Translations under genes and position numbers: made by a program
Source of the DNA: Halichondria panicea
Taxonomy: Eukaryota > Porifera > Demospongiae > Suberitida > Halichondriidae
Direction of reading: 5' to 3'
Assembly: GCF_963675165.1 (NCBI RefSeq)
Contig: NC_087388.1
Location: forward strand, 6,109,651-6,173,650
DNA: 64,000 nucleotides
Notes under the pieces: model-generated
Told to the model about the DNA's origin: nothing
The model's input: only the letters and a program-made list of their open reading frames with translations
Database searches by the model: none
In this document: positions 3,570-62,533 of the stretch, one piece after another
Numbering within the stretch: the first letter of the stretch is position 1
Layout: each line of letters opens with the position of its first letter

Positions 3570-6500
3570 TTATAAGACTAAAATAAGAACTATAGATAAA
3601 TAGAAAACTAGAATAAATAAAATAAAAATAAAAATAATAATACGCAACATCAATCTGTTAGATCCAGTTTTCAATTTCTTGTAGATTGGCGGGACTAAAA
3701 GCCACACAAGAAATAACGTAATCAATATTAGCCACAAAGGGAGTGAATTTTTTGATGAGAATGATGATGAATATGAATACTGGATTTCTGCTTTTCTTAC
3801 TACATCACTAGCGTTTCGTTTGGAAACAACTCCTATGATACACAATTCTGGTGTGTTCACAAAACTGTCAAAGTTGTAATTGCAAGCTGCTGTTGTAGCT
3901 GTGGATGTTATTGAGCAAAGGCTTGTGAACGAGCTAGTTGAGTTTTCCTCCTTCCAACCATTGATACGATAAGTTATGTTTCCCATGATATGAGAGATGG
4001 CTTCAAAATGGACACCAAAAAAATAATAGCTATTTGCTGCAAGTATGATACTGATTGAGAAATTGTCAGTTTTGATGCAGTACTCCATATAGGTGAACGT
4101 CCAAGATCCATTGTGCAAAAAAGATTCATATTCTTTAACATCGTCAAAAACCACCAAAACAAATGGGCATTCTAGATCTGAGCTGTTATAGTCCGCTGAT
4201 AATTGGATTTGCAACCTCAAAGAGGCGATATATTCTGTGTAGAGCTCATAAATTGGAGTATTTTCTTCTGGAGTGAGTATTCCTTCCTCGTATATTGTGG
4301 AATTTTCTTTTCTGATATCATCACAATTGCTAATGTTGAAGTAAATTGGGATAATTTGAGCATTTGGGATCTCGGTGAGTGTTAGATGTAGCACATCAGG
4401 TCTGACTAGAGCTATAGGTAGTATGGATGGCTGGAGAAGCTGAGCGATATGTAATGAGCCTTCATACACCGGGGGATTTGTTGTGATATACATAAGGAAA
4501 ACAAAAACTGCTGCAAAGGCGAGAATCCCCGTAAAGAAGTAAAGTCTAGAAAATCTTTGAGAGCTTTCTTCAGAGACGGTACGGTTACATCTATACATCT
4601 GTAGTAAATGATAGAGTATATAATAATTATAGGCTAGCTAGCTAGCATTTCAAGAAAATGGACTGCATGCATGCATCCAGTAGCTATTTTACCTTGTAAA
4701 TCACCTTCCCCCAATGATTGTCAACAAAACTGAGGAATCCGGTACACAGGGATTTTGTTGTTGAGGATACGGTATTCTGCAATGCATGTATGTACATCAA
4801 AATTATAGCTACATGCATGTTATTGATAAACAGATACATAATTAGTATATACACTGATATAATTACATGCATATAATATGTAGGTACTCATGGCATGCAC
4901 TGATCTGAAAGCATGCACGACGTCCGTAAGTGTATTGCACATACTAAATTTGGCACCTGTTTACCTGATGTTCTTCATGAGGTTGAGAATCATTAATTAT
5001 AAGGTTGTTTTGGGAGTCTGAATCATCAGGTTGTGTGTGGAGATCGTTAATAGCTTCTGAATCTTGTTGTGAGGGAGGAGGCTGCTGGTTGCTATATGCG
5101 GGAGGACGAATATCTGGTAAATTGTATCTGGGAGGACCATTTTCATTAGATTCTGAGTAACTTGGAATTGTAGGTAGCCTGGTACTTTCACTGTATCCCG
5201 GTGGATTATCGGAATCAGATTCATATACCCCATCATCATCATCATCATCAACTTCGGACTTTAAAACAGGAGGTGGTGTATAATGTTGACTGGACTCTGA
5301 AACAACACTCCGAAGATTTCTTGATCTTATGGTACTGCCATACCTTTCAGCACGACTTTGATCTGTGTACATAATATAAGCAAATGCATTACACTCAAAG
5401 TGATACATAATCATGTGTAAAAACCTACGTGATAATGTGGATATTGATGAGAGATCTTCCTTTGTAGAAGATACATCAGATACTGAATTCAAATCGTCCC
5501 CTTGAGGGCTGGTGGATTCATCTGTGAGCACAACACACGCGCATGTTTAAAATCAGTATTTTTTTACACTTTACCTGCACAGGGTGACATTGGCAATGCA
5601 TCTGAGTCACTGCTTGTTCCGTGTATGGGTTCATCTGACAGAGAAACGTCGTGAGTGCTGATTATTGGAGCGCTTATTATTGGGATGTTGGCATTGCACT
5701 CGACCAGCACTCTCAAAACTTCTTGATGCTGCTTTTGATCTGCAATGTCAAAGGAAGTTAATCCAGCGTTATTTCTAGCATTGACATCACTGAGCTCAAG
5801 AAGATATTTGGCAGCTCCTTTGTTGTTGAATCGAGCAGCTATGTGAAGAGGTGTGTCTCCATCCTCATTCACAACTGAGACATTATGGTGGTGTGTTTTG
5901 ACCAATTGGGTGACTAAGAGTCCCCACTTTGACCAGTCCCAGCGACAGGAAAGATGGAGGAGGGTCATTCCATCACTATCCCTGATTGAACTGACATCAA
6001 CTGTCGGATCAAGCCCTATCAGTAAGGCTAAGGCAGAAGTTTGGTCACCACCATCTTGGCCGAATACTTTTAGTAGCTTGTTCGCCATAGGTTCACTGAG
6101 CATTGAAGCAGTGCCTGGATAAGCATCTGCTGGGGAGATCGAGTTAGCTTCTGCCTGCAACAGTGTAATACATTGTTTAAAGAAGCGGTGTAGGGTAAAC
6201 TACAATAAGTATGATGATTTTGTAAAAGTATGAATATAGTATTACCTTTAGTAGTGTTTGTTGACCAATTTTGACCTCAATGAATCTTTTTTCTTTCAGG
6301 TGCTGCATCTGTTTAAGACTCAACTGGCCGTAAACATGCTTAAAACATGCTGGAACTCGAAACACCAGCTCTGTACAGCCTTCTCGAACATTCTTCAAAT
6401 TTAGAACTTGATGTGGTAGTAGTTGTTCCCAGCATTCTATAAATACTAACTTCAATTCTTGAATTTGATCGTAGGAGATTGCATCAAAGTCAACATCGAT

Positions 6501-8088
6501 CTTACATGTTATCTCCATTGATTCAATGTGAGACGGTTCAGGGCCAAAGTCATCAACAAATAAGAAACATCGTCGATTAACATATTGCTGAAAGAAACGC
6601 TCATAACTCTGTAAATCTTCGTCATCATTACAATTTGGGAAAAGAAATTTTTCTCGTATTGCGGAAATGAGTGAATAATTGAACCAAGAGCAGAAATTAT
6701 TCTGTAGGAAGTCAGATAATTTGCTAAAGCTGGTAACATCAGGGAACTGAATCTCTTCAGAAGGTCTAAGATAAATTGGCTTGTAATACGATTCTGTTGG
6801 TGTTAAAAGCGCCTTGACGTACTGCAATACTTTAGTAATATCATACTTTGCTTCCAGATTTGTAATTGTGTCTGTGAGTAAGCTACAAAACTTCGAATGA
6901 ATGTATCGTGTTTCTTTATGTAGGGCCGTCATGAACATACTATATGAGATTTCCGTGGCTGATACTGTACCGCTATAAGGAGTATCACGAGTGTATGTTT
7001 TAATTTGAGGTGGCTTGGAGCTTAAACACTTATCTCTGCCCTTGACATGACCCAAAATAGTACACTTTCCACAGCCGCATTGGAAGTTAAAGAATTTCCG
7101 ATCTGTATTAGAATCAGAAGCCGTGAGTGATTCAAATCCAGATGAGCTTGTACTGGCAGATCTTGGTTGTAACTCTTCACCTGCCTGACCTTTGTTATCT
7201 GCTGTGACGAAGGGACAATTTATTGGCCCACTATACGTACAATCATGCATGGGGTGGTATACAAACTAATATAGCTATAGTTTCATCAGCCATGACAAAC
7301 CTAAACGGCTGGGGAAGGGTTGTAGCAGGTTTAATGGATAGCTCTCATATCTTGTATATATATTAATCATGCAAAACCAGTTAATTTGCTTTGCACACTT
7401 AACCTCATGTGAAATGCAAGCCTTTGTAAGCCTTATTAAAGTCAACCGCTATAATTATACAGTGTGCACAGTGACATCGCTCTTCTGTCTTCGATAAATT
7501 TTTGCGGAAATGCCTTTAGAAAGGTTTTCACGGATTTAATTTTCGTGGAATAGCAGCTTTTTTTGCAGTATGATTGCATGGGATATTAAGTTCGCGGTTA
7601 TAAATGTTCGTGGTCCAGCTTAATCCGCGTAAACCACTAACATTTGCACCCTCAAAATATACCCGCTATACGATATAGTGCAATACATATGAGTTGAGTT
7701 TTCATAAAGCAATCTAGGATTTATATTTATACAACCTACCTCTCTCTTCCATTCTTTGAGTTTGATCGCACTGTTGATTTTGTCTCTGGAACGCATCATG
7801 GAGTTTTTGCACTACAGCCTTCGTAAAACTACCAGCTTTTTCAAGAGCACTAACCAATGAATTAAAAACCAGTGGATTGTTTTTTATCTGGAGCATCACA
7901 GATTCCATTATTCTTCGTGCTTTGTCACCATTATCATGAGTATCATTCTTAAGATATCCCAGATCGTCTGGTGCTAGGATCTCGAAAGGGAGTAATTGAT
8001 CACAGACATCTTTGGGAGACTGCTGAACACAAGTAAGAAGACTGCTGTGACAGTCCATGAATGCTTTGTACTCAGCTGACTCAGACAT
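3570..8088 (-). CDS. Class C receptor: CARD - CGCGKC domain - ankyrin repeats - PPxY linker - TM - ectodomain - TM
   Basis: Seven exons join in frame on the minus strand: 8088-7740, 7180-6246, 6154-5575, 5521-5429, 5362-4965, 4776-4693 and 4598-3570, giving about 1155 residues. ATG at 8088 opens MSESAEYKAFMDCHSSLL, a CARD-like helical domain (about residues 5-100). Residues about 117-428 start with a Cys-rich QCGCGKC segment and contain NNFCSWFNY and VREGCTELVFRVP; I recall this domain from uncharacterised cnidarian and sponge proteins, without a name. Ankyrin repeats follow (DSDGMTLLHLSC, EDGDTPLHIAA), then a linker with an Asp run and three PPxY motifs (PPGY, PPRY, PPAY). TM1 is about 832-853, the ectodomain has VLVVFDD and many N-glycosylation sites, and two hydrophobic segments end the protein. 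The 66-base gap between exons 4 and 5 is also open in frame, so its retention is possible. The acceptor of exon 2 could lie at 7203 instead of 7180. Presumably a plasma-membrane sensor with a cytosolic death-fold output; ligand unknown. Confidence 0.85.
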
Positions 8089-10022: not shown

Positions 10023-11721
10023 TCAGCAACTATACCAAAACATTATAAAGTTAAACATTGCACACGACAAAGCAAAGAAATTTGGAGTGCTCTGTTTGCC
10101 TTCATTAGAAAGTGGATTTACACTTAGTACAAAAGGAGATACTATAGCAACAACACACAATTCATCATTTTCCTCAGTCATAGTGATACTAGTAGATAGT
10201 GAAATGGTACATTGCTTGATGTTATTGTCATAAAAAATGACACTACATCTACTTATGGATTTCTCCGCAATCGCACGGATATTATATTGGTGAGAAATTC
10301 CAGAGATGCGTAGATTGATGGTAGTAGGTACAATAGTAGTACAGATCATCAGACCAGCGTATAAATAGGAGTTTTTATTGAGTACTATTTTTATAGACAG
10401 CTCGTCTTGATTAAAGCAAAAGTCAACGATAAAACCAGCTTGTATACCAGTTTTAAGAAACTCGGTATATATTTCCAGGTCATCATATATCACTAGAATA
10501 ACCGGGCAATCACATGAGCTGGACACAATACCTTGAGATGGGGTAATTGAATATGTTAGAATGGACCCATTCAAATAATAGCCTTTGTCAACGTGTTGTA
10601 TTGGTCTAGTTACGCTCAAGGAGATAGGTTTATTCACAGCAATACGGTCAACATCCAGTTCTTGACAATCGTTGACTGTGAAGACAATGAGAAGTTCATG
10701 AGAAAACTGGATTTTTTCGAATACAGTGAAAGTTATCGAGTCGTATGCATGCTCGATAAACGAGTTAACAAAGATTATATACCCTCCAGGCAGTTCGTAT
10801 ATGCTGTTTACAGTGATGTTTATTACAGGAAGGACTGTAGTCATGTTTGTTACAGCAATTGTAGGAAACACTAAAGAATCGTCAGGAACAGTAGTGGGCG
10901 GAGTTGACGTTGTCCATGGATATTCAGAAACAGTAGTAGTTGGAGTTGATGTTGTCCATGGAGATTCAGAAACAGTAATGTATATGATGGGTGGAGGTGA
11001 AGTTGAAGATTATTATCGTCAAGAGCCACGACCATTTGCATCGCCTTGAATGCTGATGAAAAAAGTTGAATAAATAATACATTAAATATAATGCTAGTTA
11101 AGGCTTACCGTTGTTACTAGAGACTGATCGCCAGTGCTGGATATGTCTCCATGATTGGTGTCAGCTTTGCTTGTGTGATCTGCATTCAGTGCATTCATGT
11201 TGTGAATAATTATATAGAAGTGTCTATATAGAGTTAATTTACCTTTGGTGGGATCAATGGAATTTTTCTGCTTCACTGTATTGATGCTGGTCATTTCCAT
11301 TGTGCCGCTGTCAGACCCTTAATAGAGTATAATATAATGATTGTAATTCTGAGCAGGTATAGCACTAACCATTAGTAGCCAGCTGCAGTGAAGAGGAACT
11401 CAGTCTGTACTCTGTATTTCTGGTAGCTTTAGTAAGACGTCTTTCGACCACCTTTGCGAGATCATTGTGCCCAACACTAGAACGTGAGAGAGCCTCAAAC
11501 ACGTCTGTCCAGTTTCTCTCACCACCTTTTAGCCACTCTGATAGACCCTCAAGATAGCAGTTATCAGGATCTTCACGACATCTTATATTGATAGTTTCAA
11601 TAGTAGAATTATTAACTTGCAGAGCTAACAGCATCTGCTTCCATTTGGCTCTAGCTTGAAATGTTGCTTCATAGACTGCACTAAGATCATCTAAAGTTAT
11701 TGAGAGTTTGGAGTCGGCCAT
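10023..11721 (-). pseudogene. Class B receptor copy with its transmembrane segment deleted and frame lost
   Basis: Exons on the minus strand are 11721-11370 (Death domain), 11317-11243, 11179-11109 and 11052-10023. The first three are intact and join in frame; the Death domain reads LDDLSAVYEATFQARAKWKQ and ends ERRLTKATRNTEYRLSSSS. In the last exon the usual membrane-spanning stretch (LLVVIVVLTVVVLAVLL in the copy at 28005-29697) is missing: the code passes from WLLTIII straight into a Thr/Ser/Pro stalk, and the downstream ectodomain is in another frame. The ectodomain frame itself stays open to the stop at 10023, with VILVIYDD and SYLYAG kept. Either a recent pseudogene or a gene making only a soluble Death-domain protein. 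The C-terminus also differs from the intact copies. Confidence 0.7.
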
Positions 11722-12434: not shown

Positions 12435-14236
12435 TTAAACTGTAAATAATAGCGTTATTGCAGATACTAAAACAAAGAAATTAGCAGTGCACTGTTTACC
12501 GTTGTTAGGGGGAGTACAAGTAGGAGCAAGAGGAGATAGTCTCGGAGATACCAGAGCAACAACACACAGTTCATCGTTTTCCTGGTACACATTAGAGAGC
12601 GAATTTATAGTGCAGGTGTTGATGTAGTGATGGATAACGGTGCACCTGCTCAAGGATTTCTCCGCAATCGCAAGGATATTATATTGGTGAGAAACTCCAG
12701 AAATGCGTAGATTGATGGTAGTAGGTACAATAGTAGTACAGATCACCAGACCAGCGTATAAATAGGAGTTTTTATCGACCACTATTTTTGTAGACAGCTC
12801 ATCTCGATTGAAGCAAAAGTCAACGATAAAACCAGCTTGTATACCAGTTTTCTGATTCAGAAACTCGGTATATATTTCCAGGTCATCATATATCACTAGA
12901 ATAACTGGGCAATCACATGAGCTGGACACAATATCTTGAGACGGGGTAATAGAATATGTTAAACTGGACCCATCCAAATAATAACCTTCGTTAACATGTT
13001 GTATTGGTCCAGTCACATCCAAAGACAACGACTTATTCATTACTGTACGGTCAACATCCAATTTTTGACAATCGTTGATCGTGAAGTCAATGAAAGCCCC
13101 TCGAGGCAGCCAGCTCCCTCCGAATATAGATAAAATTAAGGAATCGATTGTATGTTTGATAAATGAGTCAACGAAGATTGCTGACACTTTAGGCAGTTGA
13201 TATATGCTGTTTACATTGATGAGTAGGTCTGATGCAGGAGTCGTGCCACCTGCTACGGTGACGTCTATTGAAGCTGTATGAAATATGCTCTCTGTTGGAG
13301 TAGATTCAGAAACAGTAGTGTATATGATGGGTGCAGGTGAAGTTGATGTATCAGTATGAGATAGCTCTAGTTTGAGAACAGGCAGTAAGACTGCTAAGAC
13401 CACCACTGTTAGTACCACAAAATACGACCAATAAGATTATTATCGTCAACAGCCACGACCATTTGCAACGCCTTGAATGCTGAAGAAAGTTGAATTAAAT
13501 TCGCATTCATTCTGACACGAAAATGTATATAGCTCTGTCAATTGTCTGTCATGCATGCACAGCCACAGCCACATGCATCTGCACATGCACATGAGCACAT
13601 GACAGTAACTAGTTTAAGCTTACCATTGTCACCAGAGATTGATCGCCAATGCTGGATACTTCTTCGTGATTGGTGTCAGTTTGGTTTTCTGCATTCATGC
13701 AATGTTGTTATAAAATTAAGTGGCTCTTGATAGTTTGGAGTGTATTTATATACCTGTAGTGATATCAAGCTGACTTTTCTGTTTCACCTCACTGATGTTG
13801 GTCATTTCCATTATGCCGCTATCAGATGCTTAATGGAGTATATTATAATAATGATTGTAACTCCGAGCAGGTATATGTACTAGCACTAACCATTAGTAGC
13901 CAGTGAAGATGAACTCAGTCTGTACTCTGTATTTCCGGTAGTTTTAGTAAGACGTCTTTCGACCACCTTAGCGAGATCACTGTGCCCAACACTAGAGCGT
14001 GAGAGAGCCTTAAACACGTCTGTCCAGCTTCTCTCTTCACCTTTTAGCCACTCTGATAGACCCTCAAGATAGCAGTTATCAGGATCTTCACGACATCTTA
14101 TATTGATAGTTTCAATAGTAGTATTATTAACTTGCAGAGCTAACAACATCTGCTTCCATTTGGCTCTAGCTTGATATGTTGCTTCATAGACTGCACTAAG
14201 ATCATCTAAACTTATTGAGAGTTTGGAGTCGGCCAT
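12435..14236 (-). pseudogene. Class B receptor (Death domain - TM - ectodomain) with a one-base frameshift in the TM
   Basis: Exons 14236-13891 (Death domain, MADSKLSISLDDLSAVYEAT), 13828-13754, 13688-13624 and 13479-12435 join in phase (1, 1, 0). The last exon starts with the usual basic juxtamembrane segment, but about 13418-13428 has one extra base compared with the same spot in the genes at 28005-29697 and 30417-32185, within the membrane-spanning codons, so the ectodomain falls out of frame. From that point the ectodomain frame is open for 327 codons and almost identical to the one at 30417-31430. With a single-base lesion and everything else intact, this is either a very young pseudogene or a sequencing/assembly slip. 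If repaired by evidence it would be a normal class B receptor of about 500 residues. Confidence 0.7.
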
Positions 14237-14878: not shown

Positions 14879-16665
14879 TTAAACTGCATGCATGTACATT
14901 ATTGCGGGTACCAAAACAAAGAAACTAGCAGTGCACTGTTTGCCGTTGTTAGGGGGAGTACAAGTAGGAGCAAGAGAAGATAGTCTCGGAGATACCAGAG
15001 CAACAACACACAGTTCATCGTTTTCCTGGTACACATCGAAGAGCGAATTTATAGTACACGTGTTAATGTAGTGATGGATAACGGTGCACCTGCTCAAGGA
15101 TTTCTCCGCAATCGCAAGGATATTATATTGGTGAGAAATTCCAGAGATGCGTAGATTGATGGTAGTAGGTACAATAGTAGTATACAGATCACCACACCAG
15201 TGTATAAATAGGAGTTTTTATCTTTGTAGACAGCTCGTCTCGATTGAAGCAAAAGTCAAAGATAAAACCAGTTTGTATACCAGTTTTCTGATTCAGAAAC
15301 TCGGTATATATTTCCAGGTAATCATATATCATATCACTATAGTAACTGGGCAATCACATGAGCTGGACACAATAGCTTGAGATGGGGTAATAGAATATGT
15401 TAGACTGGACCCATCCAAATAATAGCCTTCGTCAACGTGTTGTATGTAGGTCTAGTCACATCCAAAGATCGACTTATTCACTAATGTATGGTCAACATAT
15501 AATTTTTGACAATCGTTGACCGTGAAGTCAATGAAAGCCCCTCGAGGAAGCCAGCTCCCTCCGAATATAGATAAAATTAAGGAATCAAAGGTATGTTTGA
15601 TAAATGAGTCAACGAAGATTGCTGACACTTTAGGCAGTTGATATATGCTGTTTAAATTGATGGGTAGGTCTGATGCAGGATTAATTAGAGTTGTGCCACC
15701 TGCTACGGTAACGTCTATTGTATAATATAGCTGTACGAAATGTGCTCTCTGAATTAATTGTCCATGGGTATTCAGAAAAAGTAGTGGGCGGAGAGTTGAT
15801 GTTGGCAATATAATTATATATGATGGGTGGAGGTGAAGTTGATGTATCAGTATGAGATAGCTCTAGTTTGAGAACAGGCAGTAAGACTGCTAAGACCACC
15901 ACTGTTAGTACCACAATGATGACCAATAAGATTATTACTAGCCTCGATTCCAGGCCGCTGAGAAAGGCAAGGGGCTGGAGTCGAGGCTAGATTATTACCA
16001 TCACCAGCCACGACCATTTGCAACGCCTTGAATGCTGATGAAGAAAGTGAATTTCGCATTCACACGAAAATGTATAGCTCAGTCAATTGGCTGTCCTACA
16101 TGCACAGCCACATGCATGAGAGTAACTTACTATTGTCACCAGATATTGATTGTCAATGCTGGTGTGCATGCATGTCAGCTTGTTTTCATGATCTGCGATA
16201 ATAATAGAGTTAACTTATGTTTTTTGTATTACTTGTAGTGATATCAAGCTGACTTCTCTGATCCACCTCACTGATGTTGGTCATTTCCATTATGCCGCTA
16301 TCAGATCCTGAGATATAATTGCATGCAGGTGTATATAATACATACATCCATGGACTAACCATTAGTTGCCAGTGAAGATGAACTCAGTCTGTACTCTGTA
16401 TTTCCGGTAGCTTTAGTAAGACGTCTTTCGACCACCTTAGTGAGATTACTGTGCCCAACGCTAGAGCGTGAGAGAGCCTCAAACACGTCTGTCCAGCTTC
16501 TCTCACAACCTCTTAACCACTCTGATAGACCCTCAAGATAGCAGTTATCAGGATCTTCACGACATCTTATATTGATAGTTTCAAATAGTAGCATTGTTAA
16601 CTTGCAGAGCTAAGAACATCTGCTTCCATTTGGCTCTAGCTTGAAATGTTACTTCATAGGATTAT
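14879..16665 (-). pseudogene. Heavily broken class B receptor copy
   Basis: All parts of the class B gene are recognisable on the minus strand but broken. The Death-domain exon (about 16665-16364) lacks its start and first helix and has one extra base after NNATI giving a stop. The two linker exons are near 16308-16240 and 16190-16130. The membrane exon (from about 16030) carries a 51-bp transposon insertion (15939-15989) that brings an in-frame TAG. The ectodomain is split over at least three frames (15808-15452, then about 15400-15150, then 15097-14879), with small insertions such as tatcatatc near 15331. The C-terminal NNGKQCTASFFVLVPAI remains readable. It stands head to head with the CARD gene starting at 17009. 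Confidence 0.85.
15939..15989. mobile_element. 51-bp miniature TAGCCTCG element inside a receptor TM exon
   Basis: Starts TAGCCTCGATTCC and ends with the near-inverse GACTCGAGGCTA... on the same pattern as the large element at 2275. It is flanked by gattattac at 15930-15938 and 15990-15998, a perfect 9-bp target duplication. Element plus duplication is 60 bp, which keeps frame length, but the first bases create TAG in the receptor reading frame. Confidence 0.85.
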
Positions 16666-17008
16666 TGGTGATTATTTATATCTATAGCTACAAACTGATC
16701 CTTTGCATGTGAATGCATGTGTTGCAATTGACCCAGTATAAACAGAGCCCTAATTAAAGACACAACACAACCATCATGCAAATCATTTTGCCCCCAGCGG
16801 TGGGAGTTAGCTTCGATTACAGGCCACCGGCGTAGCCTCGAATCCAGGCTGATTATTTTTAATCGGCCTGGATTCGAGGCTAGCGCGACAACTCCATTAT
16901 TTCACACGCCCAAAGGTCTCTGGCCCCCCCCCCTTCTCTACTGCAGCACGAGCCCCACCTCCAAAAGTTAAATGTTTGTTTGTCTAAGTTGATCTAATAC
17001 CACAATTT
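16666..17008. promoter_or_regulatory. Shared upstream region of a head-to-head Death-domain/CARD pair, with CACCC-type box
   Basis: About 340 bp separate the minus-strand Death-domain copy and the plus-strand CARD start at 17009. Conserved words also found at 32186-32499 are GACCCAGTATAAACAGAGCCC (near 16729), TTTTGCCCC (near 16788) and, close to the CARD start, ACGAGCCCCACCTCCAAAAGTT (16948-16969, about 40 bp before the ATG). The last is a CACCC/GC-box-like motif on the minus strand. The hairpins at 16808-16882 interrupt the region. The promoter role is inferred from position and conservation only. Confidence 0.5.
16808..16882. mobile_element. Pair of miniature TAGCCTCG-type hairpins
   Basis: An inner hairpin 16833-16882 (TAGCCTCGAATCCAGGCT, AT loop, inverse copy ending CGAGGCTA) is preceded by a half copy, TAGCTTCGATTACAGGCC, at 16808. 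I cannot define a target duplication, perhaps because insertions are nested. It lies in the shared upstream region of the Death-domain copy on the left and the CARD gene on the right. Confidence 0.6.
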
Positions 17009-20000
17009 ATGGCCGAATTGAACAAAGGTTATGAAGCTCTTGTGAGCTGTCATGAAATGCTGGTCTCTGAAATTGCTCAAGACCCAAAGCAGATGGCTGT
17101 CTCATTATTCCAGCATCGCTTTATATTAGAAGATACGAAAGCTAAAATCAATGAGCTAGACCGAACCAGAAAAGATAAAGCGATATTGCTAGTGGACGAC
17201 ATTGAAAACAAAGTTAAGTCTCATCCAGAGTTCTACGAAACATTTCTACTGATTCTCGGTGAAAACGAATTACTATATTGCGACCTTGTAGAGTCACTCC
17301 TACAGCAGTATGAAAAGTATGGAAGGATTGAACCTGAGTCAAAGCATGGTAATGTGTAAACTAAGGCTCTGCTTAATATTATAACCCGCAGCAACTCGGG
17401 TATAGTAGTTGTATATTCTGAATCTGTTCACCTGAATGCGATAGCGCTGCGTTTGTACCATGGATATAGCCTCAACACAAAAGGTAGTTTTTAATTTGGC
17501 AGATTTTGCTTTTTTGTCAAAAAAGTGAGCAAATGCTAAGAAGTTAAGAAGCTAAGAAGCTTGAATCTGCACGGTTGGCCTAAATGTACATACGGCTTTG
17601 ACTCGAGGCTAGCTATGGACTTACACTAAATCCCAAATTAACACGAGGGTTGTACTTTAGTGGTTTAGTTATTGATATCAGTATGTGCAAAGCTATTAAT
17701 TTTGAATCTATATAACAATCATAACCAGCTCCAATATTGATAATCATGTAGGCAGGGCCCGAGGGAATTATGTCATCCAGTGCAATATATGGCATGTTGC
17801 ACGAGGGCGCCTGCAAGCAATAACTATACTGCATGACTGTATCTATTTCTACGTACAGATCCTCTAGCCTCAGGCCAGCGCAAAAGGTCATTGCCATCAG
17901 ATGTAGAAGTTGAAACTCTGTCAAAGCGTCCAAAGAATGATGTCACTGTACAAGGTATGCATGATCTATAATAATATTATATATATAGATCTCCCATTAT
18001 TAATACATGTAAGTATAGATACTTACATGTAATAACATTTAGTGCTGATCACATGATCTCCAGCCAATCAGCTTATCTGAAAGTAGTCAGGTGACCATGG
18101 ATTAAATAACTTAATCCACACTTAAGTGTGCTTTAAGTTGGTTTGTTTATGCACACTTTTTATCAAACAATCATAATACAAGCAGATTGAATCTGAATGT
18201 CATTATAATTATAATAATAATACAAGCAGATTAAATAAGTACACAAGCAAAGCTGAAAGTATGAATGTTATTGTTTCGACTTGTTTCATGTGTAGTAAGT
18301 GTACCGAAGTGCTGACTTGACCATAGCACCGCTTTTTCGTCTGGAGAAATAGGCTCAGCTTGCTTCGGAGATGTACATACCTGTACCTAAGCCAGATCCA
18401 TATAATTGGTTCATCAAAGATGCTTCGAATATCATAGCTTTCCAAAAGAGCAAACCAGATACTCATTGCCATATAGTTTGCGCACAAAGTTTCCCATCCA
18501 GTAAGCCAGATCAGCTGGAGGCATATCCAGTAGTGGGATCGGGACTGTTGGTCAGCAGGAGAAATAAGTCGAGAACATGCCCAGTCAGTCCAGATAGCTT
18601 TAGATCGTATCCTTCTTCTTTGCACCAGTTACTGGATCTACAAACCTACTAAAACTTGCTATTACGTCTAGCTAGCTAGCTAGCCACCAGCAACTGATTT
18701 AAAATGTAGCTAGATCTAGCTGCCATGAGGCTAGAGCTCACGTGACAGCACTAAATCCTTTAGAACACACCTAGCCAAGTCACGTGTTTTAATGCTGGTG
18801 CACTCGGATGGCCTCTCGGTTACGTAATGCACTCGGCTGCGCCTCGAGCACCACGTTAACCTCAAGGCCATCCTCGGCATGCAGATTAAAACACTTAATC
18901 TTGGCTAGGTGTGTTCTAAATAATACATAGATACTTACATGTATTGTGTACACAGTGTTTACTTCCTCTGCCCCACAATGACAACAGAACTCTTACAACT
19001 GCCCAATTCTATTTACCATACATTTTTTAGTGTGTAACTTGTTGCCCAATGACGTCAAACTCTTCTGATTGGTCAAGCTTTTCCCTATAAATTGTAATGA
19101 AGTGTTTTGAGTGAATCTTAGTGAATTCATTAGTTTGCTGAATTTTAGGTTTTTCTTCCCACAACTAGGTAGTGACCAATTAATGAGTATTGGGCGGGAG
19201 GGTGGACCATAAGTCCCAAAAGCAGATTTCTTCCACTGCATTTACACACAGTCAAGAGTAGATAAGAGTAAGAGTGTTGAACTCCTGTAGTAATCGTGGA
19301 ACCGCATTTGCCTTAAATTGCGTCATTACTGTCGTCACTATTCAATTAATGAGGCCGCAATCAACATGTGCAATAAGTGTTGCCAGGAGTACATGTGCTC
19401 CTGGTGTCTAACATAACAAATTAGACTATCAAGTGATGACGCAATTTAAGGCAAATGCTGTTACTAGCAGTTCAACACTCTTACTCTTATCTACTCTTGA
19501 CACAGTAGTGCAAATGCCATATTATATTGCACTGCATGGTATGGTTGCTATGGTAGTGATGCAACATGCCATATACAGAGCACTGTATACTATTGCTTTG
19601 ATCTGCCCACTCACTGGGCAACATATTATGCAATTACAGTTGATACATTTGAAGAACGATTGCTAAAAACCTTTCGAAGTGGAGAATTTGGACAAGCTAT
19701 TGAGATTCTATCCCAGGCTGAAAGTCAGTCCATTGATCTGAGAGACGTGTCTGATGCAGACGGCAAAACTCTCCTTCATCTTGCATGTCGCGAAAACTGG
19801 GTAGACTGGTATCACATCGTGTGTAGCCTCGTCGATAAACACCATTGCAATGTTGCAGCAGTGGATGAAGATGGGAACACACTCCTTCATGAGGCATATC
19901 AATGCGGCAATCTTCCATGCATAGATTACCTGCTTACCTTACCAACTTGTAATCCTGATGCAATTAACAAGCACGAGCAAACAGTACTGAGAATGGCCCT

Positions 20001-20597: not shown

Positions 20598-20948
20598 TTA
20601 TGTCTGTCTGTTACAGCTTCTAACTCCTTGTACTTGATCCACAGCTTCGTACTTATCTGTAAGCACTGATAAGAGGAGGTCATCATGTCGCTCATTCCTT
20701 TCCCGAAGTATTGCAATGAATTTATCATAAATTCCTGGAAAACTTTTGACTTTTGCCTGCAATTCTAGCACTAAAATCCTGGCTTTTGCCGTGTTTGTTT
20801 TGTCAAGCTGGATTTCCTGATTCGTTTCTTCTGATATCAAATGGTTTTGGAACAAAACTCCAGCGTATCCTCCCGGATCTGAAGCGAAGTCAGCAGCTAG
20901 CTGCTCGTTGCAACTCACCAATACATCATAACCAACATTTGTTGTCAT
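20598..20948 (-). pseudogene. Orphan CARD exon of the MTTN subfamily
   Basis: On the minus strand, MTTNVGYDVLVSCNEQLAAD to about LTDKYEAVDQVQG is a CARD almost the same as residues 1-109 of the gene at 47896-51257. The upstream acceptor (CATGGCAG before GTCT) is kept. A 19-base direct duplication (GAAGCTGTGGATCAAGTAC) lies near the end, and the donor that in the paralogue reads GCAG/GTATAT is changed to ACAGACAG, so normal splicing to linker exons looks lost. No further receptor exons follow on this strand. Could still be expressed as a stand-alone 116-residue CARD protein. Confidence 0.65.
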
Positions 20949-40816: not shown

Positions 40817-40852
<36 letters not shown>

Positions 40853-47877: not shown

Positions 47878-47895
47878 GTGAGTGGTGCAATAACT

Positions 47896-50800
47896 ATGAC
47901 AACAAATATTGGTTACAATGTATTGGTGAGTTGCAACGAGCAGCTAGTTGCTGACTTTGCTTCAGATCCGGAAGGAAACGCTGGAGTTATGTTCCAAAAC
48001 CATCTGATATCAGTCCAAACAAATCAGAAAATCAATCAGCTTGACAAGATAAACACGGATAAGGCCAGGATGCTAGTGGTAGAATTGCAGGCAAAAGTCA
48101 AAAGTTTTCCGGGAACTTATGATGAATTCATTAAAGTACTTCGGGAAAGGAATGAGCGACATGATGACCTCCTCTTCTCAGTGCTTACAGATAAGTACAA
48201 GGAGTTAGAAGCTGTAACAGCAGGTATATATATATATATGTGTGTGATCCATGCAGTAGCTGTAACCATGCAGTAGTTTACGCTATAAACTGTGCATGCA
48301 TATAAGACAATAAATTGCAATTGCATGCAGAAACTGAAGTTCCTAAAAACCCAGTAGAACCACAGAGGATTGTTGCAACCAGTAAGTACAGCTATATAAT
48401 TATAATGAAAGCACCACGGGTGCTGATGCCTGCGGAGGTGCCAAAGCTACATAACATAAAGCTAGCTTACATTACACATTGATCATGATAATTTTGCTGC
48501 ATGCAGACTGAGAATTAAAGAGTGAGTGGGTAATGATCGACGATGATTGTTGTTAAAAACGATGGATGCCAAAGTTCAAGTCTAGAGCCTTGCAGCTCTC
48601 TTTGATCTTTCAGCTACCAATAGCTAGCGTTCTAGTGCAGAGAACACTTGGTGAACAAGTTTTGCTACGGACTCTTCTGAAAAGGCTGCAATGGCAATTC
48701 TAAATAGGCATAACTCGAGAACGAAGCATTATTTTGCAAATCCACGAATTAAAATCCAAGTAAACACGACTAAGAAGCCTATAGAAACTCTTACTTGCAC
48801 TTGATTCATCCTTGAGCAGCTGTAGCGGTCTACACACACAAACATACAGACACACAAACACACTACCGTATACCTCGCTTGCGCATGCGCACCGAGGCAT
48901 AATAATAAGTCATACAATGCAATCAACACTCTTACTCTTGTCAATTAATAGGCTTTGTAGTTATTATATTTACATTAATACATGCAATGCCAAACTCTCT
49001 TTTCTGCGTGGTGTAGTTCTTGAGTTACCTACCGTGGACGATGGAGGGACACTACCTGATCCATTAGAGTACCCTCCTGATGACGCTGAAGTAGGAGCGG
49101 ACCTCAGAGCAGCTGCAACAAGACGACAGGAAGCCCCCACAGGTATGTATGTGAATGGATAAATTCTTTGCAATAACTATACATGTCAATTGTAGTTGAT
49201 ACATTCAAAGGACGATTGCTACAAGCCTTCCAAAGTGGAGAAAGTGAACAAGTCATTGAGCTTCTATCCCAGGCTGAAAGTCAGTCCATTGATCTGAGAG
49301 GTGTATCTGATGCAGACAGCAAAACTCTTCTTCATTTTGCATGTCGCAAAAACTGGGTGGACTGGCATGGCATCGTGCGAAGCCTCATCGATAAACACTA
49401 TTGCGATGTTGCAGCAGTGGATGAAGATGGGAACACACCCCTTCATGAGGCTTATCAATGCGGTAATTTCCCATCCGTAGAGTACCTGCTTAGCTTACCG
49501 ACTTGTAATCCCGATGCAATCAACAAGCACGACTACACAGTACTGAGAATGGCCCTTGAGGTAAACGACAAAAAAACTGCGAGAAATCTTTTAGCAACAG
49601 GACGAGTCGATCCTAGAAAAGGTAGCCCACGCGGTCATACTTACTCAGAATTGCTTGAAAGAAATCAGCTTCAACCACAAAAACAAGATGGCTCAGCTCT
49701 TGAAATGGTGACCCAGTTTGCGGAGTGCATGGAGGGTAACAATCACGTTCGTCCACCATTCACTTCTTATTGCTTGCGTGATACACTCAACAAGATCTTG
49801 AAGAATTGTGATCAAGTTTCAATCACTGGAATAGTAGATCGCATTAAACAGAACATGTTACCTCTTCCAGAAAAACCTGATGAGATTCATGATCTGCTTA
49901 TTGATATTCAGGGATTCTCAGACGAGTTTGTCATGCACAGACACAGACCTAGTAATGATTTGGGGAAACTTAAAGTTCGAAAAAAAGGTACGATTTTAAG
50001 TACGTATACATACAGCATAAGTTTTATGCCTGTTTTCCGCAGTAGATCGAATTACAGTAGTTATTGATGAAAGTGACGAGAGTATTGAGCCAGTACCAGA
50101 ACCCTCTAAACCTCCTGAGGTAGGGTTTTTGCCACCCTACTCATCTACTCAGGTATGATAGATATCTCTACTAACTGATGACAATCCTGTATTTTGTATA
50201 TCCCTGTATTTACTCTATACGTTCACAGAAAGTTCAACGTCCAACCAAACGTGAAATTAAGAAGCTAAACAAAAATCAAACCAAGCGTAAAAATAAAGAG
50301 CCAGAAGAAAGCATAACACGCATATGTCTCTATTATTGTTTCTTTGGATTTGTTATATTGTTTGTACTAGGCATTTTCGGTGCATTATTGTACGATGGCT
50401 ATTCACTCGTTGGTACTACCAGTGTGGTACAAATTCATCTGCAATCTGTGCCACTAATTGGAATACTTGATAATCCATCCACTTTTGATCGTCTTAGATT
50501 CTCAGAACCAACCAACGGAACAGACTTAGTCCCCATTAGCTTCTATACATTGAGGAATTGCTCTTTTGAAGATTCACTTACAAATGTTAAGATCAATGAG
50601 ACAATAACTGTAAACTTTGGCTTCCCGAATGACAAAAGCAAAGCTGTTACTGAATTGTATCTTCTTGGAAACACCACCCTGACTTTACATGTTACCACTG
50701 AAGTCATCCCTAACTATTTAACCGGTCACTGTATTGCATTTCTTCTTGTTTTTGATGATTTTAATAAGTTCTTGAACTTCACCTCAAACTATTTTTTAGC

Positions 50801-51257
50801 CGAAGAATTCTATTACAAAGAATGTATTGCTAACGAAAAATCACAAACGATGAATATAACATTCGACAAACCATCGTACTACTATATTGGTGTGTACACA
50901 GACATTCCGACTGAAGTTGATATGTTTTTTTTACACTTTCTCGGAACGTATTTGCAATACGACATTTCAAATGGGAACACTGGTTGCTCTATAAGCTCTC
51001 TGGGTGCTTTAAGTTGTGATTTTTCTCTGAATACCAACCAGCAATTGCAAACCTGTATTGTTGGTTTCGTACCACCTAGTACTGTGTTATCTGGAATAAA
51101 AACAACAACTGTAAACTTTTACACTGATGTCAACTCGCGAGCAAATATAACAATATATTTCTTTCTTCCTCTATTATTTTTCATGATTATTATGATTTTT
51201 ATTTCTTGTAATTATTGTATACTACATAGATATAGAAGGGGAAAGAAGCCTGCGTAA
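47896..51257 (+). CDS. Class A receptor with MTTN-type CARD - ankyrin - TM - ectodomain - TM
   Basis: Exons 47896-48223, 48331-48381, 49017-49142, 49196-49987, 50043-50152 and 50229-51257 join in frame to about 811 residues. The CARD (MTTNIGYNVLVSCNEQLVAD, about 1-108) is a separate subfamily, shared only with the orphan at 20598. The linker ETEVPKNPVEPQRIVAT matches the class C linker at 1829-1788. The ankyrin exon (169-432) has KTLLHFACRKNW, EDGNTPLHEAYQCGNFP and TVLRMALE, then the helical module (PFTSYCLRDTLNKILKN, IVDRIKQNMLPLPEKPDE). The juxtamembrane exon is acidic and Pro-rich (PVPEPSKPPEV, LPPYSS). A very basic stretch (KREIKKLNKNQTKRKNK) precedes TM1 (about 501-524), so the N-terminus should be cytosolic. 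The ectodomain has QSVPLIG, CIAFLLVFDDFNKF, YYKEC, SYYYIGVYTDIPTE, GCSI and TCIVGFVPP with many N-glycosylation sites. TM2 and a basic tail RYRRGKKPA end it. An extra upstream exon is likely because an acceptor precedes the CARD exon. Confidence 0.87.
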
Positions 51258-51329
51258 GTTTTTATTGAGTTAGGTTCACACAATTTTGATGTTTAAGTTA
51301 AGTTTTTATCTGTTCTCAACTGTGTTGCA

Positions 51330-51807
51330 TTTCTCCTTGTTTTTGACAAGTTCTTAAGTTTCACTTTAAGCTCATCTTTAGTCGAAGAATTTTATTACGA
51401 AGCATGTATACTTGTTAATGAACAATTACAGATGAATATTCAACAAACCATCGTACTACTACATTGGTTTGTACACAGACATTCCCACTGAAGCTACTAC
51501 TTTCTCTTTACACTTTCTCGGAATATATCTTCAATACGACATTTCTAACAAAGATGCTGTCTGCACTATAGACTCTCGTGATGATTTAAGTTGTGAATTT
51601 GCAACCAGCAAACTTGTATTGTTGGTTCTGTTCCACCTATATACTGATACACCATTTAGAGTAACTGTAAGCTCTTACATGTACATTGGTAAATACTCAG
51701 AGACATACGTAGACACATTGTTTTTTAGTCCTCTAGTTATATTGTTTCTGTTATTTTTTGGGTTGGTTTATTGTTTTTTTAAGTGTTGTATACCTAAAAC
51801 AGAATAA
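51330..51807 (+). pseudogene. Partial second ectodomain exon
   Basis: Starts mid-domain at CVAFLLVFDKF-like sequence, loses frame around 51410-51440, then is open from VYTDIPTEATTFSLHF to the C-terminal membrane segment and stop at 51807. It is closest to the ectodomains at 43081 and 61604, not to the one just upstream. A deletion in the NNQQTCIVG region shifts the frame there too. No TM1 or acceptor is present. Confidence 0.75.
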
Positions 51808-51874
51808 TAATTATTGTTGTTACATGGTCATGTTTTTGTGACTTGTATTGACTGACATTGAGTATTAGAAAACA

Positions 51875-55183: not shown

Positions 55184-55614
55184 GTGTCAATGTGTTTACT
55201 TTTGCTAGCTGCTGCATTATTATATGATATCTTTAGCAACAAATACGGACTTAACTACTGCGTTAGCTATGCTGGCTTCTCTGCCTAGAGGTATAGGCTA
55301 CAATAACTCTTACTCTTCCCCCCCGCTGGATACTAGTACTGAGATGTTCATCTAGCCTTGTTTGAAGCTTGATCTTAGCATATTCTCATGGCCGCATTTG
55401 CAGTTTTCTTACTAAAACTGCCATCATGATGACGTCATCAACGGATAATTAATAGACTTTGTATCCCTGGTTGCATGTAAGAGCTAAAGAATTTAAAGCG
55501 CAAAATCAATGCACAAGAACCCAAATGAGTTTTACCTATGCATGGAGTTATAAAATTAATGAATTAATGAGTGACCTGCACTTTTTAAATTAGTTCTTCT
55601 CTTATCCCAAACAG

Positions 55615-56619
55615 CCTGAGAAGCAAGCAGTAACAAAAGAAGTGTTCGAAGCTGCCTGTGGAGCTTGCATATGTTGTTGTTGTTGTTGGTTTGGTGTCTT
55701 CTTAATCCTTGGAACAACGGGTGCAATATTTTACGATGACTATTCGCTAGTTAATACCACGAGTGTGGCACTGATTCACCGGCAATCTGTACCACTAATT
55801 GCAACACATGATCTATCGACTAAATTCTTTAGGTTTTCAGAAATTAGCGGAACAGGCGTAGTCCCCATTACCTTCTATGAGCTAAGCAATTGCTCTTCAT
55901 TCATAGATGTTGATATAGATGAGATTGTGACTGTAAGCTTTGACTCTCCGACTGACAAGACCAAGGCTGTTACTGAGTTGTATATGCTAGGAAACACTAC
56001 AATTAGTATCGATATCGCCACTGAAGTTCTCCCTCAATATTCTCCGGATTCTTGTTTGGCAGCTCTCATTGTTTTTGACGATCTTAACAACTATTTAAAT
56101 TTCATTTCAAACTCAGAGTTTTCGCCAGGTGCCAACAACTATTACCTATTCGAATGCATTGCTAACACAAAATCACAAACGAAGAGTATAACATTCGACA
56201 GGCCATTGTACTACTATATCAGTGTGTATACAGACATTCCGGCTGAAGTTACTACTTACACTTTACACTTTCTTGGAACGTATCTTCAATACGACATTTC
56301 AAACAGGGACGCTCTCTGCACTATAGACTCTCGTGATGCTCTAAGTTGTGACTTCCGTTCTCTGGATACCAACTCGTTACGGCAAGTCTGTATTGTTGGC
56401 TCTGTGCCACCTACTGATTTGCTATTTGGAATAAGACTAGTAACTTTAGGGTATTACACAGCTGATAGCTCAGATCCAGAAATAGATGTGTATTTTTTTA
56501 TTCCTCTAATATGCATGTGCTCTGTGTTTTTGGTTTGTGCTGTAATTTGTGCTTGTGTTATTCTTATATCGTGTATACGTAGGCATAGAGGCAAGCGCCA
56601 GACAGCACACATTACTTGA
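55615..56619 (+). CDS. Orphan class A TM/ectodomain exon, intact
   Basis: An open exon of 335 codons follows a good acceptor (CCCAAACAG before 55615, phase 0). It begins PEKQAVTKEVFEAACGACIC, with a CICCCCCW cluster before TM1 (WFGVFLILGTTGAIFY), then the full ectodomain (HRQSVPLIATHD, CLAALIVFDDLNNYLNF, LYYYISVYTDIPAE, LCTIDS, VCIVGSVPP), TM2 and a basic tail ending TAHIT. No matching CARD, linker or ankyrin exon lies in the 3.8 kb upstream apart from the decayed CARD at 52911. Its start phase is the same as that of the exon at 50229, so it could be an alternative last exon of the gene at 47896, or a relic that lost its 5' half. Open frame and kept cysteines argue for recent or present selection. 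Confidence 0.65.
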   Translation, partial: PEKQAVTKEVFEAACGACICCCCCWFGVFLILGTTGAIFYDDYSLVNTTSVALIHRQSVPLIATHDLSTKFFRFSEISGTGVVPITFYELSNCSSFIDVDIDEIVTVSFDSPTDKTKAVTELYMLGNTTISIDIATEVLPQYSPDSCLAALIVFDDLNNYLNFISNSEFSPGANNYYLFECIANTKSQTKSITFDRPLYYYISVYTDIPAEVTTYTLHFLGTYLQYDISNRDALCTIDSRDALSCDFRSLDTNSLRQVCIVGSVPPTDLLFGIRLVTLGYYTADSSDPEIDVYFFIPLICMCSVFLVCAVICACVILISCIRRHRGKRQTAHIT

Positions 56620-60000: not shown

Positions 60001-62533
60001 AACTTTTCTAGTCACTTTTCTTATTTCCCCCTCTACTTCAAAATCATATATGACACCCTGGAGGGAAATTCAGAGAGTCTGCTTCAACCATTTCCTATAT
60101 ATGCCACATTCTGTAGTCACAGCTGATGAACCTGATTCAGGTATTTTATTGTTAAGTTAGTGATATAGCCCAGGACTTTCCCATGCAATTGTATACACAA
60201 TCCAACAATCCAAAATTTGATTAATTGACCTCCTGTCCTTGCTAACCCTGTGTTCCCTCCCCCCACCACACACAGGGGTATAGAAAACTTTATAGGGAAC
60301 TGCATAATTATAAACTAGTCAGTCATAAAATAGTGCTTGTTTCTATTATTTTATCAGTACATGTATTACTTTAGTAGGTATTCCTGAGTTACCTACCATT
60401 GATGACAGAGGGATACTATTGGACCCATTAGAGGACCCTCCTGATGACACTGAAGAGAGAGACCCAGAGGACCTCAGAGCAGCTGTAACAAGTCCACAGG
60501 AGACCCCGACAGGTATATGATTGGAAATAATACTGCCTTGTGATTATCAGGAGATAAAACAATTGTAGTTGATACATTTGAGGGACGATTGCTGCAAACC
60601 TTCCAAAGTGGAGAATTTGAACAAACCATTGAGCTTCTATCTCAGGCTGAAAGTCATTCCATTGATCTGAGAGGCGTGTCTGATGCAGACGGTAAAACTC
60701 TCCTTCATCTTGCTTGTCGCAAAAACTGGATGGACTGGAAGAGTATTGTGCGTAGCCTCATTGAAAAGCACCATTGCGATGTTGCAGCAGTGGATGAAGA
60801 TGGGAACACGCCCCTTCATGAGGCATGTCAATGTGGCAATCTCCCATCCATAGAGTATCTGCTTAGCTTACCGACTTGTAATCTTGATGCAATTAACAAG
60901 CACGACTACACTGGACTGAGAATGGCCCTTAAGGTAAAGGACAAACCAACTGTAAGATATCTTCTAGCGACAGGACGAGTTGATCCTAGAAAAGGTAGCC
61001 CACGCGGTCATACATACTCAGAATTACTTGCAATGAATCAGCTCCAACCACAACCACAAGATTATGATGGCTCAGCTCTTCAAATGGTGATCCAGTTTGT
61101 AGAATGCATGGAGGGTAGCAATCATGTTCGCCAACCGTTCACTTCTTACTGCTTGCTTGACACACTCCACAAGATTTTGAGCAATCGTGATCAAGTTTCA
61201 ATCACTGCAATAGTACACCACATCAAAGATAAGATGTTACCTCTTCCAGAAAAAACGGACAAGATTTATGATCTGCTTATTGATATTCAAACCCTGTCAG
61301 ACGAGTTTGACATACGTGGGGACTATGAGTTTGGGGAAGTTCAAATCATAAAGAAAGGTATGAGTAGCTAATTATTATAATGGACACAAATCTTTACACA
61401 CAATACTTCACAGGAGAGAGGTCTGTACCTCGAAATGTTGAGGTTCTAGCTGATAGCACCAGGATTGAAGATCAGGATACACCTGACTACTACTCTGATG
61501 CAAGCGATGAAGTACCCTTTATCAGCCGTCGCCAGGTATAATTATACTGCATGAATGACATACACCTATTCTTGCGTGCATTTTTTTCTTATCTGGTCCA
61601 CAGAGCCTGAGATGTAGTGCAACAACAACAAAAAAATCAGCATATATAATATTCTGCCTTATTGGTTATAGTTTGTTTGCTCTCTTCTTAACTCTTGCAA
61701 TCAGAGAACCAATGCACTATTCAGTCGTTGGTACCACCAGTGTGGTGCAAATTCACCGGCAATCTGTGCCACTGATTTCCGGTAATGACTTATCCATTAT
61801 GAGGCTCACAGAGACCGGAGCAGACCTAGTCCCTATTACCTTCTATTCGTTAAGCAGTTGTTCGTCTCATGAATCTTTCGTAGACGTCAAGATCAATGAG
61901 ACAGTGACTGTAAACTTTGGCTCGACTAATAAGAGCAGGGCTGTTACTGAATTGTATCTGGTGAGACACACTACATTGACAGTAGATATCACCACTGACG
62001 TCATACCAACCTATGCAACCAATCATTGTGTTGCATTTCTCCTTGTTTTTGACAAGTTAGACAAGTTCTTAAGCTTCACTTTAAGCTCATTTTTAGTCGA
62101 AGAATTCTATTACAAAGAATGTATTGTTAATGAACAATTACAGATGAAGATCTTGACATTCGACAAACCATCGTACTACTATATCGGTGTGTACACGGAC
62201 ATTCCCACTGAAGCTACTACTTTCTCTTTACACTTTCTCGGAACGTATCTTCAATACGACATTTCAAAAGGGAATGCTGTGTGCTCTATAAACTCTATTG
62301 AAATTTTAAGTTGTGATTTCCCGGATTATATCAACCAGCAAACCTGTATTGTTGGTTCTGTACCACCCGCTATATCTACTGATACACCATTTGGAGTAAC
62401 TGTAAGCTCTTCCGCTATTGCAAACCCTGGTGCAGCTATAGTATATTATTTTATTTCTATAATTTCTATTTTTGTAGTTATAGTGACTAGTGTCGGTCTT
62501 TGTATTTATTTGTGTTCACTTGTTACATGTTAA
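57069..62533 (+). CDS. Class A receptor with two ankyrin cassettes
   Basis: Exons 57069-57399 (CARD), 58808-58936 (linker), 58986-59792 (ankyrin 1), 60378-60512 (linker), 60569-61357 (ankyrin 2), 61414-61535 (juxtamembrane) and 61604-62533 (TM/ectodomain/TM) join in frame, about 1080 residues. Two short LLQPFP-type linker exons are dead: near 57741 the donor is lost, near 60065 the frame stops; skipping them is neutral because neighbours are phase 1. Both ankyrin cassettes keep DADGKTLLHLACRKNW, EDGNTPLHEA and the helical module (PFTSYCL, HKIL, LPLP). The juxtamembrane exon has DQDTPDYYSDASDE. The ectodomain reads VVGTTSVVQIHRQSVPLIS, CVAFLLVFDKLDKF, SYYYIGVYTDIPTE, VCSI and TCIVGSVPP. TM1 is ordinary (IIFCLIGYSLFALFLTLAI). 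Longest class A protein here. Confidence 0.83.
57400..58807. other. First intron of the two-cassette receptor, with repeats
   Basis: 57580-57650 carries words shared in inverted orientation with about 17755-17860 (ACACTGGATGACATAAT). A dead linker exon lies at 57741-57802. The segment 58665-58800 matches 38285-38450 in the paralogous intron (TGTGCACACAATT, CACTACTAAGCAAAT), showing that these introns were duplicated together. A fold-back is at 58185-58275. Confidence 0.5.
58185..58275. mobile_element. Fold-back hairpin
   Basis: CACATGGGATATATTGGCTC and GAGCCAATATATCCCATGTG are exact inverses around a GC-rich centre (GAGGCCTGCGGCCC). Likely a miniature element. Confidence 0.7.

Follow-up and report, generated by a model that had tools for sequence, protein, structure and literature searches.

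The death receptors of the TNF-receptor family are membrane proteins that carry a cytosolic Death domain. How signals from outside reach the death-fold repertoires of sponges is, to our knowledge, poorly defined. The present analysis concerns a stretch of 64,000 nucleotides of the genome of the sponge Halichondria panicea (131.5 Mb in 39 contigs), C12:6109651-6173650, hereafter the window, which holds one end of a tandem array of putative membrane receptors with a death-fold domain as N-terminal head. Sponges possess very large repertoires of Death, CARD and TRADD-N domains (PMC8195603, PMC12909245), and their large NLR, CARD and Death repertoires include putative membrane-bound NLRs (PMC12909245). 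An expansion of the NCOA6 clade has been described in Amphimedon, with proteins combining Death-like, TRADD-N and ankyrin modules (PMC8195603). The same source describes, in the oyster Crassostrea virginica, about 50 receptor-like proteins made of a Cys-rich ectodomain, a transmembrane (TM) segment and a DED-TRADD-N region. Shortcut receptors, such as a TNFR-caspase, have been reported in amphioxus (PMC2575513).

The genes of the array share a common plan, with a CARD or Death exon first (the head), an optional ankyrin cassette, a TM segment, an ectodomain and a second hydrophobic segment. Three ectodomain classes, A, B and C, were distinguished, and a related gene lies at an unlinked locus on contig C6. 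Like the oyster proteins presented in the text of PMC8195603, they bring together an ectodomain, a TM segment and a predicted intracellular death fold in a lineage-specific expansion; the oyster ectodomain is however N-terminal and Cys-rich, with one TM segment, whereas here the head is N-terminal and the ectodomain, of beta type, comes with two hydrophobic segments. With the Amphimedon proteins of the same text they share N-terminal death folds, a variable C-terminus, frequent ankyrin repeats and a large sponge expansion, and the order death fold, extra domain, ankyrin recurs in class C and in the C6 gene. In contrast, a TM-ectodomain-TM end is not listed for the Amphimedon proteins in that text, figures and source data aside, the assignment of the present extra domain to TRADD-N is weak, and the class A and B models have no extra domain. 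Sponge NLRs also show N-terminal CARD or Death domains, large repertoires and, for some, a predicted TM segment (PMC12909245), but neither NACHT nor LRR was matched in the array exon frames scanned. Compared with TNF receptors, the Death domain is N-terminal, two hydrophobic segments are present, and ankyrin repeats separate the head from the membrane in both class A and class C.

Profiles for NACHT, LRR, TIR, the TNFR repeat and RING gave no match in the exon frames scanned, small linker exons aside. Neither the NACHT plus LRR combination of NLRs nor the TIR domain of TLRs and IL-1 receptors was thus found there, and the head is the first exon in all models, unlike in TNF receptors, where an ectodomain of Cys-rich repeats comes first and the cytosolic Death domain is C-terminal. 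The first-pass annotation, made from the letters of the window, had proposed that the architecture departs from the standard NLR, TLR and TNF-receptor ones, which agrees with these scans; its novelty has to be tempered, since membrane receptors with an internal death fold have a precedent in the oyster (in the text of PMC8195603). No description of this architecture was recognised in the open-licence literature at the level of titles, abstract starts and passages, which is not proof of absence. The locus appears to be a coherent receptor-like array with exchangeable N-terminal death-fold heads, a variant of the invertebrate death-fold receptor theme, with a presumed receptor function.

Six gene models, all foreseen in the first-pass annotation, could be rebuilt in the window with identical ends, zero internal stops and lengths of 504-1133 residues (codon counts below include the stop).

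3570..8088, minus strand: class C gene with CARD_C, extra domain, ankyrin (by Pfam), PPxY linker, TM, ectodomain and hydrophobic segments, no stops; exons 8088-7740, 7198-6246, 6154-5575, 5521-5429, 5362-4965, 4598-3570; 1134 codons
28005..29697, minus strand: class B gene with Death, linkers, TM, stalk, ectodomain and C-terminal hydrophobic segment, almost tailless; exons 29697-29346, 29293-29219, 29157-29087, 29039-28005; 511 codons
30417..32185, minus strand: class B gene; exons 32185-31843, 31789-31727, 31661-31597, 31460-30417; 505 codons
32500..36448, plus strand: class A gene with CARD_A, linker, ankyrin, linkers, TM, ectodomain and TM; exons 32500-32830, 33129-33254, 33320-34102, 34161-34327, 34817-34945, 35468-36448; 839 codons
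47896..51257, plus strand: class A gene with a CARD_A2-type head; exons 47896-48223, 49017-49142, 49196-49987, 50043-50152, 50229-51257; 795 codons
57069..62533, plus strand: class A gene containing a tandem, in-frame pair of ankyrin cassettes, with a separate linker exon for each; exons 57069-57399, 58808-58936, 58986-59792, 60378-60512, 60569-61357, 61414-61535, 61604-62533; 1081 codons

Exon joins were placed at GT-AG sites chosen to keep the frame and to agree among paralogues. GT-AG thus holds by construction, with alternative sites present in places, and the informative point is rather that frame-keeping joins exist with one phase pattern. The first, death-fold exon is followed by a phase 1 intron and the TM/ectodomain exon is preceded by a phase 0 intron in all six models; the phase 1 exit extends to all eight complete models, which include the C6 gene and another gene of the array, starting at C12:5871866. 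Between the last acceptor and the first TM segment (TM1), no Met is found in five of the six models, the class C exon having one at its first codon. These shared phases and the lack of a Met, together with the linkage of 45 of 49 ectodomain exons to a head and the intact C6 gene, both detailed below, make it most likely that head and TM/ectodomain exons belong to one gene. The plan common to the six models stands as first proposed, except that the gene at 3570 adds an extra domain of about 300 residues and PPxY motifs. An ectodomain of about 230 residues does not hold for the family: the stretch between hydrophobic segments varies by class within 225-315 residues (class A 249-266 in 14 copies, B 291-315 in nine, C 225-299 in eight), and a third hydrophobic segment is seen in three of the eight class C copies.

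The heads of class B and of the C6 gene belong to the Death-domain superfamily by profile similarity: a profile built from 14 relatives hits FADD with an E-value of 1.4e-6, and Pfam Death is matched by eight of the 14 (best 5.5e-8), the single window copy scored in detail giving no Pfam Death match. The heads of classes A and C are assigned to the CARD family, with Pfam CARD matched by five of eight window copies (best 8.1e-6), the member shown in detail scoring below the curated cut-off (21.4 vs 23.9 bits). The CARD or Death reading of the heads is thus supported for Death and holds less firmly for CARD. The ankyrin repeats are clear, with best Pfam E-values of 1e-14 to 1e-20.

The array predicted from the window alone extends over about 300 kb (C12:5.87-6.18 Mb), about five times the window length. 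It was delineated by searching the genome for relatives of three ectodomains, a pair of CARDs, a single Death exon and the extra domain; ectodomain fragments were merged by hand before counting, and the best 150 of 549 Death candidates were scored, so that Death exons may be missing. In all, 49 ectodomain exons were counted, 20 of class A on the plus strand, and 21 of class B and eight of class C on the minus strand. In 29 copies (14 A, 7 B, 8 C) the frame runs unbroken from a point ahead of TM1 through to the last hydrophobic segment, and two further class B frames open inside TM1; the other exons are cut, stopped, without TM1 or outside the frames read. Outside the array, the C6 copy is the only ectodomain listed in this genome, and none further was found with the C6 ectodomain as query. 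A search for relatives among viral contigs gave 23 pattern matches, of which none was confirmed.

A same-strand death-fold exon lies upstream of 45 of the 49 ectodomain exons, within 12 kb and with no same-strand ectodomain exon in between; across 300 random placements of the death-fold exons, 25.8 were linked on average and 34 at most. With the limit set at 1.5 kb, 25 links are observed, against a random mean of 7.2 and maximum of 14. Two linked pairs about 10 kb apart (5914545, 6023518) are unsure. Ectodomain fragment 5913366, six short CARD_C fragments (5895514, 5895631, 5932429, 6052607, 6071607, 6071724) and those CARD matches that lie elsewhere on C12 were excluded from this count. Of the 19 Death exons counted in the array among the matches listed, 18 lie upstream of a class B ectodomain, no more than 400 bp away in 17 cases.

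The death-fold head appears to have been exchanged between copies. Three CARD types, CARD_A, CARD_A2 and CARD_C, are all found on class A ectodomains in complete models, one example being the CARD_C-headed class A gene at C12:5871866 (844 residues). More broadly, the nearest upstream head is CARD_A for ten class A copies, CARD_C for seven and CARD_A2 for one (none for two); Death for 18 class B copies, among the Death matches listed, and CARD_C for two (none for one); and CARD_C for four class C copies and CARD_A2 for three (none for one). The ectodomain tree separates A and B clades (100/100) and a C clade (99/99), and well-supported sisters have unlike nearest heads (L018 and the window copy at 3738, 100/98; L023 and L024, 100/100). 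At least eight head-type changes are counted on this single tree, with 27 of 29 rows labelled and tree uncertainty not included. Since the head exon exits in phase 1 in every complete model, heads would be swappable in frame. This apparent exchange at fixed phase, with three CARD types on class A ectodomains, is what is new here.

The C6 gene (C6:5879285-5883193) encodes 1007 residues without stops, in the order Death, extra domain, ankyrin, TM, ectodomain, TM. Its Death exon exits in phase 1 and its last intron is in phase 0. The Death exon resembles class B (55-61%) and the middle part class C (43%). We infer that this gene is close to the ancestral plan, and that classes A and B arose by losing parts of it.

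As for topology, 22 of 31 array frames have a net positive charge ahead of TM1, and the ectodomains contain 1-10 sequons and 5-9 Cys. The tail after the last hydrophobic segment measures 6-18 residues in class A, 4-45 in class C and 0-3 in class B (nine of nine copies). Class B chains end at this segment (28005-28100 and 30417-30520, minus strand) though an N-terminal TM segment is present. The terminal segment may be a glycosylphosphatidylinositol (GPI) signal, to judge from its position. Tetherin has a comparable topology, with an N-terminal TM segment and a GPI-signal-like end.

The three ectodomain classes are homologous by hhalign (A-C 6e-20, A-B 9e-11, B-C 1e-17, the class C set including the C6 row). 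The AlphaFold2 prediction (29 copies; pLDDT 85.2, pTM 0.80) consists of beta strands and one ten-residue helix, so that the ectodomain is confidently predicted as an all-beta sandwich, for which no family is claimed. Foldseek returned 109 PDB matches at E <= 0.001, the best being a viral capsid protein (5.4e-7, TM-score on the query 0.23). VIA-align likewise retrieved many beta-sandwich families, among them capsids, GOLD, PPC and calpain C2-like domains (best Z 9.1), with the GPR180 N-terminal domain as best match (109 residues, 3.0 Å), near the background stated for the tool.

The first-pass annotation had called the ectodomain unrecognised. No confident family emerged, but a sub-threshold match to Pfam APD1-4_M recurs: 22.3 bits against a cut-off of 25 (E 1.5e-4) for window 50175-51257 including the TM segment, three of 11 frames with TM (best 1.5e-4) and seven of 29 without (best 1.2e-3). 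APD1-4_N is not listed for the receptor ectodomains in the Pfam scans. The plant APD1-4 proteins are transmembrane RING E3s whose substrates are unknown (PMC13210498); they carry a RING finger, whereas the receptor exons and the seven local APD-like frames scanned show none. H. panicea indeed has an APD-like family of its own (PF16040/PF16041), with 12 APD1-4_M matches that pass the cut-off, ten on C8 and two on C17. All seven frames scanned show APD1-4_M, a weaker APD1-4_N and two hydrophobic segments, and none has RING or a death fold, further exons not having been sought. Family members resemble the receptors in a short start, a TM segment, a two-part beta ectodomain of about 250 residues and a second TM segment, and the model of one member (pLDDT 74) has a similar element order. 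The secondary-structure order score between the two models, 258.8, exceeds all 150 shuffles (maximum 255.3, z 3.0), a weak signal given 254.3 for the reversed string. Plain membership of APD1-4 is doubtful, since hhalign against the local family is not significant in any class and the order signal is weak. A relation of the receptor ectodomain to APD is likely but unproven.

The same tandem TM-APD1-4_N/M-TM family occupies C8:5.48-5.61 Mb and C17:1.90-1.92 Mb (L001-L004, L034-L040). The tail of a C17 copy contains PPPY and PPKY, with a weak WBP-1 match (0.02), and may, on these motifs, recruit a WW-domain E3 instead of a RING of its own.

GOLD-like chains match the same part of the receptor and APD-like models, a supportive sign only. 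Since p24 proteins have GOLD domains that rank near the top of the fold matches for either model, the array could encode endomembrane sensors or scaffolds, with the beta domain in the lumen of the endoplasmic reticulum, Golgi or endosome and the heads reporting luminal state or cargo; sequons and Cys would suit a lumen as well as the outside. This is nevertheless unlikely: fold Z scores of 7-9 are near background according to the tool's note, and some 49 copies with faster-changing class A ectodomains would, in our judgement, be unusual for housekeeping proteins.

Sequence divergence was compared between heads and ectodomains in eight matched class A genes, one probably broken, and seven class B genes, two broken. 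In class A, the nonsynonymous divergence (dN) is 0.043 for the CARD and 0.200 for the ectodomain, the synonymous divergence (dS) 0.299 and 0.397, and their ratio (omega) 0.14 and 0.51; in each of the 28 pairs the ectodomain has the higher dN. In class B this is so for 17 of 21 pairs. Class A heads are thus constrained and their ectodomains diverge faster, diversifying selection not being proven. Such divergence in a single tandem array, with near-identical duplicates, many broken copies and unlike heads on one ectodomain class, would also fit allorecognition, the array being a polymorphic self/non-self haplotype that is read when individuals touch and that leads to cell death or rejection. We hold this to be quite improbable, as the array is known from one genome and positive selection was not detected (see below).

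Tandemly duplicated membrane receptors with a cytosolic death-fold head and an outer beta ectodomain remain the reading that we consider reasonably probable. The cytosolic part would comprise the CARD or Death head and the ankyrin repeats, joined in class C by what may be a TRADD-N switch. One TM helix would lead to the Cys-bearing all-beta ectodomain outside, and the second hydrophobic segment would return the chain, except in class B, where the chain would stop almost tailless after this segment, perhaps a GPI signal. Ligand binding or clustering by the ectodomain could gather the heads at the membrane, where they would nucleate assemblies with the many cytosolic Death and CARD proteins of the genome, driving caspase, kinase or NF-kB type outputs. 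As class A ectodomains carry three CARD types, frame-safe head exchange might wire one ectodomain class to different adaptors. More tentatively, the whole could form a combinatorial locus, in which diverging ectodomains on a fixed membrane plan would be joined to swappable first-exon heads (CARD_A, CARD_A2, CARD_C, Death), rewiring sensing to pathway.

Several observations weigh against this receptor reading. The gene models are derived from genomic sequence, and beyond the eight complete ones the head labels are those of the nearest upstream exon. A strand-flipped control still links 21 of the 49 ectodomain exons, so the loose-distance linkage is partly a matter of array density, and of 65 death-fold exons counted among the array matches listed, 45 are paired with an ectodomain and the other 20 are orphans. 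A Pfam CARD search of the genome gave 27 matches, none in the array, and in the CARD profile search of the PDB the best CARD match was ICEBERG (0.067), ranked below Sin3-type rows. The charge before TM1 is zero in three of 31 frames and negative in six (L011, L012, L014, L015, L021 and window 35468). Head and ectodomain omega are alike in class B (0.54, 0.57), and site-level positive selection, sought by parsimony counting at p < 0.1 with at least four changes, was found in none of ECTO_A, B, C or CARD_A. That small death-fold adaptor genes are merely interleaved with independent membrane proteins, which would account for the 20 orphans and for models drawn from DNA with splice sites picked to fit, is highly improbable in view of the consistent phases of the eight complete models, the same order at the unlinked C6 locus, the five of six window ectodomain exons without a start codon before TM1, and the 18 of 19 counted Death exons that precede a class B ectodomain, 17 within 400 bp.

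Read as receptors, the array genes would offer a direct membrane link to the sponge death-fold repertoires, with ectodomain and head in one chain and in many copies. Head exchange at a fixed intron phase makes a testable case of pathway rewiring by exon shuffling, and variation of the array between individuals would make it a candidate for a role in sponge immunity or allorecognition. The family may represent a diversified sponge recognition system with a previously undescribed N-terminal-head two-pass topology.

The remaining features of the window bear out the first estimate of at least seven broken copies.

255..1678, minus strand: extra-domain pieces only, probably a class C copy with its ectodomain left of the window
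4965..5362, minus strand: juxtamembrane linker exon with three PPxY motifs
6246..7198, minus strand: Cys-rich exon of the extra domain of about 300 residues, second half possibly TRADD-like N (weak)
10023..11721, minus strand: class B copy, Death exon open, TM/ectodomain frame broken
12435..14236, minus strand: class B copy disrupted near TM1, its pieces spread over three frames
14882..16700, minus strand: class B copy, Death and ectodomain both broken (stops)
17009..20136, plus strand: orphan CARD_A and ankyrin exons, without ectodomain
20637..20966, minus strand: orphan CARD_A2 exon
22927..23326, minus strand: Death pieces
25141..26852, plus strand: class A copy with CARD, linker and ectodomain, ankyrin and TM1 not found, probably broken
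37391..44028, plus strand: class A copy in which CARD, linker, ankyrin and a further linker precede an open TM-ectodomain-TM frame, putative splicing
50379..51146, plus strand: ectodomain taken for structure prediction (AlphaFold2)
51318..51675, plus strand: class A ectodomain fragment
55594..56619, plus strand: class A TM-ectodomain-TM exon, no upstream death-fold exon found

The orphan CARD and CARD plus ankyrin exons could be broken copies, soluble adaptors or decoys.

The extra domain of class C and of the C6 gene, about 300 residues with 50 genome match rows, starts with FxCGCGxCT and has a CSWFNY core; it gave no confident Pfam family and no PDB match. PF20694 (TRADD-like_N) matches two of 16 relatives (best 0.022), a weak signal, as single members match the unrelated families GhoS (0.0073) and DUF2397 (0.02) at least equally well. 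The only PF20694 match in the genome (0.044, below cut-off) overlaps an extra-domain relative on C5. A search with PF13820 (NCOA6 TRADD-N) matched nothing anywhere, controls included, and says nothing on the extra domain. From these resemblances the domain is possibly TRADD-N, which would fit the Amphimedon proteins with Death-like, TRADD-N and ankyrin modules described in the text of PMC8195603.

PPxY motifs also occur in three of five other fetched class C linker regions (L076, L077, L078), a count without a chance control. By its motifs, the class C linker could possibly connect these proteins to NEDD4-type ligases.

Death domains of the class B type have expanded widely in the genome (C1:15.5-17.4 Mb, C6:0-0.8 Mb), with at least 150 match rows including the array, and at locus L044 such a Death domain is fused in one frame to a protein kinase.

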